Of a DNA stretch of 64,000 nucleotides, positions 44,049 through 46,957 are shown piece by piece. The DNA is taken from assembly GCF_000003815.2 (NCBI RefSeq), contig NC_049980.1, positions 13,872,638 through 13,936,637 on the forward strand, read 5' to 3'. A program made the position numbers and the translations under genes. Source of the DNA: Branchiostoma floridae. Lineage: Eukaryota > Chordata > Leptocardii > Amphioxiformes > Branchiostomatidae. The notes beneath the pieces are model-generated. The model did not search any database and was not told the DNA's origin. It saw only the letters and a list, made by a program, of their open reading frames with translations. Position 1 is the stretch's first letter, and each line of letters opens with the position of its first letter.

Positions 44049-46957
44049 CTATGCATCAGCGATGGTCACTTCCACCTCAACACCAGGCTCGATGCTGATG
44101 GATGTCTGGGACAGGGTTAAGGTGGTAAAGTGGTTATGTGGTTGTTGACTAGGATTGGAAACTAAATGTTCTGGGTTCCAATCCCTAGCAGGCACTTAAG
44201 TTGTGCACTTGGAAAAGGCACTTAACACCTATTTCCAAACTCAAGTAAGATGAAAATGAATACCTGCATCTATAGGTTAGGGACTTCTCTTTGGATGGGA
44301 TGTAAAGCCAGAGGCCCCATTTTTTAGAAATCTTGCCAGCCTCAACAGCAGTGTGGACCTGCTAAACGTAACCGCCTGGAAATGCGGTGTGAAAACTAGT
44401 CAACTGCTGCCCACCAGTGTTAGGGACTTCCACAGCATTTATCAGATACATATAGACTACTACAGCATATCACAAGACATCTCTCAAGATCTCAGACCTG
44501 ACTGCACCCCTGCTATGATGATCTCTCCACCACACAAAGGATACGATCTGCTTGACGATCTCGGAGGGACTGTGCAGGTCGATCAGGCGCTTGTGGATGC
44601 GCATCTGGTAGCGGTCCCAGGTCTTGGAGCCCTCACCGCAGGGGGTCTTACGGGTGGTGATGCGCAGGACCTTTGTAGGCATGCGGACGGGCCCCTTCAC
44701 CTGGAGGTTCTTCTCCTTAGCACCACGGATCAGATCAGCACACACTGGGGAAATACAGAAACACAAACTACACGTCACATTGGCCAGGTAAAGATAGTTA
44801 CCTGGGTGACCGCCCTATGTTCCGAAATCCCTATGTTCCGAAATCCCTATGTTCCGAAATCCCTATGTTCCGAAATCCCTATGTTCCGAAGTCCCTATGT
44901 TCCGAAATCTCCATGTAAGTGTAACAACGCACTAGTGTTTTGGTACACTTACACTCCTTCCCAGATTTCAGCCGCAAACTATTTCTTTAGGCAAACCTAA
45001 ACGCGCGCCATCGACTTTTAAATGTATCGTAGGTAACGCACCTCACCTCGTACCAGTTTGATAGCATCATAACAAAAATACAATTCTTGAAGAGGAAATT
45101 AAAAGATACCCTCATACATGAAAACGACGTACATACGAATATTTGCATGTATACTAAACATAATTTTTTAGATATATACGTGATTATCTCGGTCACCCAT
45201 AAATGCAATATACACGAGACCAAGTAAATGGGTTACGTTAAATGCGGTTAGCAAATGGTACATGAAGGAACTTTTCAGCTGAAATTTGCAATGAGTTCGC
45301 ACTCTGTTTCAGGTGCTAGAAAAAGGTTAAACTTTGATAAATATCCTAGTTTATCTCAAAATAAAAATAAAGTAGAATTTCAAGTGTTTTCAGCTCAGGG
45401 CGACCCATGCGATCGTCAGAATCGAGTAGATTTCTTCGGTTAGGCAGGAGTCTTGCTCCAATTGAAACCGCTCCTCTTGAACTCCTTTTTCTCTTTTGTC
45501 AGCATACAAGGCCGGTACCGGTTAACATCGATAAACTGTATAGCTTCGTATTGGCTATCAACTTGTGAACGCCATCCAATTCATGTACAGGTTATAGTTA
45601 TGTGTTAGTACACTCACAAAGAAATTTCGGAACATAGAGACTTCGGAATATAGGGATTTCGGAACATAGAGATTTCGGAACATAGGGATTTCGGAACATT
45701 GGGCTTGAACCAGTTACCTGTACATGGCATGGCAGTAAATTCCACTTTGTCGTGAGATAAAGTCCATGATTGACCATGCTCTGTGGTATCTGCTATAATG
45801 TGGCCATCGGTTTACAGGATTTTACTCGAAAGTTTTTCCTTTGAATATGCTTGTTTGAGAGCCATTCATCATAACAACTTTATCATAATCTAGTACTAGT
45901 AATGTTCATAATCTAATCATGTTCTGCCCAAATAAGGGGACATGATACCCAGCACCCAGTCAAAATTACGGTACATAGTAGCCTTTAGTAGATAAAACCT
46001 TTCCTTTTTCTGCCATGTAATTTTTCACATGATTCCCCAGTACCCCACCTTTCTCCAGACTCTTGACGTTGCGGCTGGTGAGTGTGATCCTGATGCGGTG
46101 GATCTGGGTCTCCTCCATGGGCGCCTTGCCCGAGTCTGCTCCCTTCTGGTATGCCTAGGTGTAACGTTACATGGTTGGGAAATTATTGACCCATGAACAT
46201 TTAGATGCCTATTTTAGCAGTAAGATGAAGGCATCCTAATATATGTAACAACTTATTGTACAACTCATATGTTACGCCCTTGGATTAACAAAAGGGATAA
46301 CCAGAAATAATTTGCTACAATGGGCCGTTCCAAAAAATAAATGTGGGGGGTGGGTTGAAGAGGTCGGATTTTACTGAGGGGGGGTCAAGGAAATCTTGGA
46401 TTTGGATTTCGTTTGAACGGGGGGGTCAAGATAAGTCTGGATATGGGTTTTTCTACCAAAAAGTCAAGAAAATCTGGATTTGGATACTTTTACTCCTATC
46501 TCAGTTACAGTACTGTAAGGGCAAGGTTCTAGGATGAAAATTATGAGGGGGTAATGTTATTCAGATGAAAAAAAAGGGGTATAAGAGGCATTTGGACCTC
46601 GGATGAAAGAAAGGGGGGGTTGGAGCTCTCGGATGAAATTAGAGGGGGGTCGAGGCACTCGGATGAAATTCAATGGGGGGGTCAGGCACTCGGATGAAAT
46701 CCAAAGGAGGGGTGAAGCAATTGGAAAATCCAACCTCTTCAACCCCCCCTCCACATTTATTTTTTGGAACGGCCCAATTTTCTTTTCTAACATCTGCTTG
46801 GAAATATGCGCGGGCAACACCGCACACCACAAATTTGGACCACGTGGGTTCAGAAATAACCTAAGGTTGTCGAAGACCAAGACAGTTTAAACCAAATCTA
46901 CAGCACTGAGGATAATCTTGGACGTCTTAAGAATTCTAATGTACAGTTCCTTACCAT
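44049..46957 (-). CDS. RPS20: 40S ribosomal protein S20 (uS10), complete
   Basis: RPS20/uS10 is a core protein of the small ribosomal subunit head. Coding exons: 46957-46955 (ATG only), 46154-46049, 44744-44545, 44105-44049; 366 nt, 121 residues (human 119). The protein reads [18 protein letters not shown], then [17 protein letters not shown], the near-invariant middle [19 protein letters not shown] to [18 protein letters not shown], and the end [18 protein letters not shown]. Junctions are GT-AG, including a weak GTATCC donor after exon 3. A first coding exon holding only the initiator codon is common in ribosomal protein genes. The introns have been invaded by three different mobile elements (44113-44345, 44805-45711, 46319-46780), while the coding sequence is intact. 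I looked for a box C/D snoRNA in the introns and saw no convincing one. Confidence 0.97.
44113..44345 (+). mobile_element. SINE family B copy, antisense in RPS20 intron 3
   Basis: The head has an A-box-like GGTAAAGTGGTTATG and a B box GGGTTCCAATCCC. The body CTTGGAAAAGGCACTTAACA then AAGATGAAAATGAATACCTG matches the family B SINE at 20535-21003. The far 3' end is not clear, and no target duplication was found. Confidence 0.65.
44805..45711. mobile_element. Foldback DNA element with 16-bp tandem repeats in inverted arms and 9-bp TSD
   Basis: The element is 907 bp, in RPS20 intron 2. Outer ends GGTGACCGCCCTATGTTCC and (right, reverse complement) GGTTCAAGCCCAATGTTCC match at 14 of 19 positions. 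Inside, each arm is a tandem array of the 16-bp unit ATGTTCCGAAATCCCT: about six units at 44816-44912 and about five inverted units at 45617-45697. Between the arms are about 700 bp of AT-rich, non-coding sequence. The identical 9-mer AGTTACCTG flanks it at 44796-44804 and 45712-45720, the target-site duplication. A 9-bp duplication fits Mutator-like transposases, but no transposase is encoded, so it is nonautonomous. Confidence 0.9.
46319..46780. mobile_element. G-rich foldback MITE in RPS20 intron 1
   Basis: The left arm TGGGCCGTTCCAAAAAATAA, followed by ATGTGGGG and GGGTTGAAGAGG (46321-46365), is inverted at about 46731-46777. Both arms are followed outward by AAT (46319-46321 and 46776-46778), a possible 3-bp target duplication of the PIF/Harbinger kind. 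The interior has four units of about 30 bp built on CTCGGATGAAAT plus a G6-7 run (46590-46720), so one strand is very G-rich. Open frames through it on both strands are not coding. Confidence 0.75.

Follow-up and report, generated by a model that had tools for sequence, protein, structure and literature searches.

A foldback-type transposon family with 16-bp tandem-repeat arms and unlike ends in Branchiostoma floridae

Background

The nearest published case that we found for the transposon family described here is Tm1, a Mutator/Foldback family of Meloidogyne, the root-knot nematodes (PMC3169594). Tm1 has unlike terminal motifs of 7 bp (A1, CGGTTAA or CGGATAA; A2, CCTACCC) lying outside the inverted repeat, arms of 1–9 tandem units of ~14 bp (8–21 bp; CGATTCAGTATCGC or CGTTTCAGTATCGC) with an inner motif D, and mostly 9-bp target-site duplications (8–10 bp in 45 of 53 cases). 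It is represented by many short non-autonomous copies, one copy encodes a Phantom-type transposase, and the element was judged inactive by its authors (PMC3169594). Foldback (FB) of Drosophila also has inverted arms of tandem repeats, and Galileo combines foldback-like arms of more than 1 kb with a P-type transposase bearing a THAP domain (PMC3688188). Of the several sites in the Galileo arms that bind transposase, one has been footprinted; according to the same 2013 paper, a role of tandem repeats as binding sites had not been tested for Foldback and Phantom elements (PMC3688188).

Here we describe a foldback-type insertion found in a stretch of 64,000 nucleotides of B. floridae DNA (the window), together with its relatives elsewhere in the genome. 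The window family follows Tm1 in having two unlike motifs at its termini, beyond the inverted repeat, as well as tandem-unit arms with an inner motif, mostly 9-bp duplications and many short non-autonomous copies. Compared by eye, the A1, A2, C and D motifs of Tm1 have other sequences than those of the window family, and the plan alone is common to the two. No description of the family was found among the matches listed for the literature on foldback and amphioxus transposons; a Repbase entry may exist.

The element in the RPS20 intron

The first-pass annotation had proposed a complete foldback insertion at 44805–45711, with opposed 16-bp arrays and an exact 9-bp duplication, in an intron of RPS20, and all of this was confirmed. 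The insertion is 907 bp long and complete, with six and five units in its two arrays, and lies between two copies of AGTTACCTG. Its features are as follows (window coordinates).

44745–46048, minus strand: RPS20 intron holding the insertion, 1304 bp, GT..AG, splice sites read from the sequence
44796–44804, plus strand: left copy of the target-site duplication, AGTTACCTG, 9 bp, exact direct repeat
44805–45711, plus strand: whole element, 907 bp, A1 end on the left and A2 end on the right
44805–44812, plus strand: terminal motif A1, GGTGACCG, sharing 4 of 8 bases with the opposite end
44813–44908, plus strand: left array, six 16-bp units CCCTATGTTCCGAAAT
44909–44931, plus strand: inner non-array part of the left arm, holding ATGTAAGTGTAACAAC; inverted counterpart at 45601–45623
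44932–45600, no strand assigned: interior, without transposase similarity
45601–45623, minus strand: inner non-array part of the right arm
45624–45703, minus strand: right array of five inverted units
45704–45711, minus strand: terminal motif A2, GGTTCAAG
45712–45720, plus strand: right copy of the target-site duplication, 9 bp

On the plus strand of the window AGTTACCTG occurs exactly twice, at 44796 and 45712, and on the minus strand not at all. The outermost 8 bases of the element do not form a proper inverted repeat, as GGTGACCG and GGTTCAAG agree at only 4 of 8 positions (GGT....G). Allowing up to 3 mismatches, the 16-mer unit has 12 matches in the window, compared with 0.54 expected and a maximum of 3 in 100 shuffles, and 11 of the 12 fall inside the element. 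Folded as single-stranded DNA, the element gives z = -14.2 relative to 20 shuffles. Its inverted arms extend ~20 bases inward of the arrays, and similar inner stretches are found in other copies. Drosophila FB and Phantom elements likewise have 9-bp duplications; the window family probably differs from them in arm length and sequence. Two further arrays in the window, at 30077–30175 and 55939–56006, are built of a related but different unit, ATGTTCCRACACCCCT, and have decayed ends.

The exon downstream of the intron lies in a minus-strand frame (44470–44814) that matches Ribosomal_S10 in Pfam (E = 1.3e-21); the upstream exon was placed by eye, and its 42-aa stretch has no Pfam match. The insertion and one duplication copy make up 916 of the 1304 bp of the intron. 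An empty site, suggested as a check in the first-pass annotation, was not recovered: one 50-mer searched with up to 3 mismatches had no match in this single assembly, and an empty allele may still exist. The same annotation had considered arms made of minisatellites unusual, which did not hold, such arms being typical of foldback elements (PMC3169594; PMC3688188).

Copies, subfamilies and target-site duplications

In the genome (513,431,437 bases in 431 contigs), a dimer of the unit gave 241 matches with up to 2 mismatches, compared with none for the reversed control. Pairing ends by position yielded 34 convergent pairs within 4 kb, falling into two subfamilies and representing 33 loci after removal of one duplicate, while 23 of 91 ends were left without a partner. 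The outer boundaries of the window element are common to copies elsewhere in the genome, so that neither of the refuting outcomes named in the first-pass annotation, a single copy or disagreeing boundaries, was observed. With long inverted arms of tandem short repeats, defined boundaries in many copies and target duplications, it belongs structurally to the foldback class.

The ends are unlike in 34/34 pairs: GGTGACCG always stands at one end, and either GGTTCAAG or GGTTACATG at the other. Subfamily 1 comprises 22 convergent pairs at 21 loci (L053 and L016 share flanks and are the same locus), drawn from 20 stretches around dimer matches, 4 of 9 further stretches and the window; three of the first 20 stretches (L011, L018 and L027) contained no convergent end pair. 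When up to 2 mismatches are allowed, all 22 pairs combine GGTGACCG (A1) with GGTTCAAG (A2), and the two orientations are represented by 11 pairs each. Subfamily 2 pairs A1 with GGTTACATG (A2') in 12 of 12 cases, and its unit ends in CTCT. Elements are 789–1503 bp long, except for two of 2164 and 2571 bp (L010 and L023), in which the extra length comes from inserted unrelated repeats, as judged by eye. One further copy, L009, has a replaced interior.

A possible third subfamily, suggested by 12 of 36 matches that read GGTTCAAT, was rejected. The four that were read (L029–L032) sit in one repeat with shared flanks, and all 12 were therefore left out of the pairing. Also omitted were 3 of 53 matches (C3:9857688, C7:24392145 and C166:225172) and 1 of 18 (C12:1432947). 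At L045, a subfamily 2 A1 end, there was no partner within 7 kb, and the 128-aa frame present there had no Pfam match.

Exact duplications of 8 or 9 bp adjoin 21 of the 34 pairs. In subfamily 1, the 9-bp flanks are identical in 10/22 pairs and differ by at most 2 mismatches in 12/22 (one locus counted twice), whereas none of 462 combinations of flanks swapped between different loci came within 2 mismatches. One of its members, L020, has an exact adjoining 8-bp duplication instead of 9 bp, and in 9 of the 22 rows, representing 8 of 21 loci, a duplication could not be recognised. Subfamily 2 shows exact duplications of 9 bp in 4/12 and of 8 bp in 6/12 pairs, with 2/12 lacking a recognisable one. 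The duplications of both subfamilies fall within the 8–11 bp given for the Mutator superfamily (MULEs; PMC6446971).

Interior sequences of 18 aligned elements (L009, L010 and L023 omitted) show a median divergence of 7.1%. The interiors of L014 and L017 differ by 0.7%, and those of L019 and L020, which lie on different contigs with their own flanks, by 0.1% over 720 aligned bases. This last value shows that the 16-bp-array family moved recently, as opposed to the inactivity attributed to Tm1. The window copy matches other family members at 74–87% in BLAST pieces, and in the alignment its interior is 18–27% from the 17 other copies; it is therefore either older or of a different branch. Its duplication is still perfect despite this divergence.

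Transposase search and superfamily

The genome contains 27 matches to Pfam model PF10551 (MULE), several of them in long open frames. Among five such frames scanned, FLYWCH and MULE domains occur together, the architecture of Phantom (PMC3169594), only in L037:589-2358. The frames of L036 and L039 have MULE without FLYWCH, and those of L033 and L044 have a ZSWIM1/3-like appearance. Around the L037 frame, which encodes 590 aa with both domains, lies a 3985-bp element (L055:1346-5330) with an exact 9-bp duplication, GTGTGTAGC, unlike 7-bp ends (GGAAGCA and GAATGTC) and inverted arms in which a core like AACTCGGACCAT recurs 7 and 6 times. In the other MULE loci inspected with longer flanks (L054, L056, L058 and L059), complete foldback-like ends with a duplication were not seen: at L056 there is an inverted pair of 57 bases but no duplication, and the Phantom-like L058 and L059 have no clear terminal inverted arms.

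A search with the L055 ends returned 98 matches and its reversed control 70, and the list of ends is therefore not clean, though paired ends match closely. It contains 30 nearest convergent pairs, with 39 of the 98 ends in no pair. Two pairs, of 3985 and 4242 bp (the latter the C19 copy), carry the transposase, and 28 are short (536–836 bp). The ends (GGAAGCA or GGAATCA on one side, GAATGTC on the other) are unlike in 29 of 30 pairs, and the single like pair fits a nested insertion in which the outer left end was mis-paired with the inner right end. The L055 family thus shares with the window family its unlike ends, inverted arms with repeated cores, short copies and, as checked in the L055 copy only, a 9-bp duplication; it differs in its core, in a spacing of 14–25 bp, and in having transposase-bearing copies.

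Among the candidate places examined, no transposase with the ends of the window family was found, and hence no autonomous partner of the kind that the first-pass annotation had suggested looking for. We compared 66 MULE/Phantom places, a list built from the best-scoring candidates and not exhaustive (the 27 PF10551 matches and 39 more from 83 rows, neighbours merged by eye), with 94 listed ends, and the nearest was 87 kb away. Likewise, no autonomous partner was seen between widely spaced convergent ends of the window family, four MULE proteins had no tblastn match at E<=1 in 23 sequences (21 elements, L046 and L047), and 12 MULE loci with 1.5-kb flanks contained one single 16-bp unit (up to 4 mismatches, in L036) and no terminal words. 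At the nucleotide level, L055 and the window family share only pieces of 15 and 35 bases (E = 0.33). Because of this lack of nucleotide similarity and the distance to the nearest of the 66 places, we take the L055 family not to be the parent of the window family, judging from sequence comparison. The units of the two families are alike at 8 of 9 positions in opposite orientation, a weak resemblance equalled in 11 of 400 shuffles. The L055 family thus provides, within this genome, a Phantom-type model built on the plan of the window family.

Taken together, the precise ends, the 8–9-bp duplications, the multi-copy family, its recent movement, the lack of transposase similarity, the constraint on the unit core (see below) and the unlike termini are observed directly. 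We suggest that the window element is probably a short, non-autonomous member of the Mutator superfamily of DNA transposons, Foldback/Phantom-like, whose arrays would be bound by a Phantom-type transposase acting in trans. The enzyme that moves such an element might instead belong to another superfamily, which we regard as unlikely. Subfamily 1 is dominated by 9-bp duplications, whereas P and hAT elements duplicate 8 bp and Galileo 7 bp, and the unlike-ends plan recurs both in Tm1 and in the Phantom-type L055 family. On the other side stand the excess of 8-bp over 9-bp duplications in subfamily 2 (6 vs 4) and the failure to find a MULE with the ends of the window family among the 66 places. 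In addition, the superfamily cannot be read from the arms alone, because Galileo joins foldback-like arms to a P-type transposase (PMC3688188).

A conserved core in the array unit

Across 219 units from 21 loci of subfamily 1, the eight positions of the core TTCCGAA-T show 11 changes in 1752 cells, whereas the eight remaining positions have 105 in an equal number of cells; counted as distinct variants, the contrast is 11 vs 48. Depending on the way of counting, the core is thus 4- to 10-fold less variable than the remainder of the unit, and element interiors depart from the column majority by ~5%. After removal of seven near-duplicate copies (141 units), 10 changes remain in the core and 69 outside it. 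With 3, 5 or 7 mismatches allowed per unit, the corresponding figures are 7/67, 10/69 and 15/71.

As an initial inspection of the units had guided the choice of the core, two checks were made. When 59 distinct variants were distributed at random over 16 positions, the eight least varied positions held no more than 11 of them in 53 of 20000 trials, a procedure that treats variants as independent. In 70 units of subfamily 2, which was not used for choosing the core, there was 1 change in the core and 25 in the rest (560 cells each); 12 of the 25 affect the base adjoining the A2' terminus. Because L049 and L068 cover one and the same locus, two units enter this count twice, and many units are terminal and covered by the search pattern. 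The search patterns weigh core and other positions equally and therefore do not alone produce the contrast.

In 184 of 187 cases, neighbouring cores follow each other at a spacing of exactly 16 bp, compared with a unit length of 8–21 bp in Tm1 (PMC3169594). Unit number varies from 2 to 7 in A1 arms and from 2 to 8 in A2 arms, and at 21/21 loci counted both arms keep at least two units. The low variation of the core is the pattern expected of sites kept for a protein, and suggests that it is a putative binding site. The proposal in the first-pass annotation that the arrays may be transposase-binding sites is thereby strengthened, if indirectly, by the conserved core and by the Phantom-type MULE family of the same plan.

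The arrays could also be ordinary minisatellites that arose by slippage inside the ends and have no role in transposition, an explanation compatible with a transposon. The variable unit number would fit such an origin, as would the long one-direction arrays that related units (ATGTTCCRACACCCCT) build elsewhere. However, slippage and homogenisation should affect all 16 positions equally, whereas the core varies less than both the rest of the unit and the element interior; the near-invariant spacing and the retention of at least two units in both arms also speak against it. We therefore give this explanation little credence, less than the possibility of another superfamily. Finally, since flanking duplications are missing from several copies, one could think of a local duplication or a palindromic rearrangement and no transposon at all; this is refuted by identical boundaries at 33 loci and locus-specific exact duplications at 21, with no matches in the swapped-flank control.

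Unlike ends and a proposed route of transposition

Under the Mutator reading, a Phantom-type transposase (FLYWCH and MULE domains) would be supplied in trans and would bind the repeated cores TTCCGAA(A)T of both arms, join one A1 end with one A2 end, and cut at the termini. Insertion would then proceed through a cut staggered by 9 or, in some cases, 8 bases, and the window copy would be a family member that landed in the RPS20 intron.

No like-ended element was found in the three families and subfamilies studied, save for the one pair fitting a nested insertion. A tentative explanation, to which we lend some but not the greater weight, is that the ends are obligatorily unlike: the transposase complex might pair A1 with A2, and the inverted minisatellites might serve as arrays of FLYWCH-type binding sites recruiting the transposase. 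Common descent from one unlike-ended ancestor would give the same pattern. The ends stay unlike even though the arms that they enclose, being inverted copies of each other, could exchange.

Conclusions

The chief points of interest of the family described here are the constraint on the core and the unlike-end rule. A 2019 survey reports that MULE transposases could not be detected in Branchiostoma floridae (PMC6446971). This is contradicted by the MULE-domain proteins in long frames and by the Phantom-type family with full-length and short copies reported here. With regard to the role of tandem repeats raised in the 2013 Galileo paper (PMC3688188), the pattern of core variation offers an indirect, comparative answer on repeats as binding sites, with TTCCGAAAT as the candidate site recurring every 16 bp. 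The unlike-end rule, in turn, makes the question of how the transposase assembles on its ends a testable one.

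Atypical copies of the foldback family

Some copies of the foldback transposon depart from the usual structure. At one genomic locus, L009 (about 2900-3917), the ends are normal, and in place of the usual interior they enclose about 1 kb of different sequence, possibly captured DNA, comparable to that of Pack-MULEs. At two further loci, L016/L053 (one locus present twice) and L022, the A1 end reads ACTGACCG, which is perhaps an aberrant, extended end. Both have CCAAACA outside this end, both are without a duplication, and the interiors of L016 and L022 differ by 0.4%.

Other repeats

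GGTTCAATCCCTATGTTCCGAAATCCC lies within a multi-copy repeat with constant flanks, as seen at each of the four places read, out of 12 in all:

C4:31174217, GGTTCAATCCCTATGTTCCGAAATCCC repeat
C7:6383620, GGTTCAATCCCTATGTTCCGAAATCCC repeat
C10:5772243, GGTTCAATCCCTATGTTCCGAAATCCC repeat
C11:14881527, GGTTCAATCCCTATGTTCCGAAATCCC repeat

A piece of this repeat, roughly 230 bp long and with one unit in each arm, makes up L048. The window itself holds two small decayed elements built on a 16-bp unit, ATGTTCCRACACCCCT, related to that of the foldback family:

30077-30175, decayed element
55939-56006, reaching to about 56090, decayed element

The former is flanked, as judged by eye, by ACAAAAAG repeats. 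Genome-wide, two adjoining copies of ATGTTCCRACACCCCT were matched 107 times, some of these matches lying in long arrays running one way (e.g., C10:7010974-7011497). Elsewhere in the window (5109-6165), 62 copies of CTGCCGGACCCGGTAAG form a large 17-bp minisatellite, through which several frames are open.

Phantom-type MULEs

Two full-length Phantom-type MULEs (FLYWCH + MULE) were located:

C9:6718845-6722829 (L055), with an open frame of 590 aa
C19:2134492-2138733 (L038)

Their end words are common to 28 short nearest end pairs. At C1:6982715 and C9:15934128, GGAATCAGGACGATTCGGACCTT end words occur ~6-8 kb away from two Phantom-like frames, 1748 and 1905 aa long, and these two loci perhaps represent a third, larger Phantom family.
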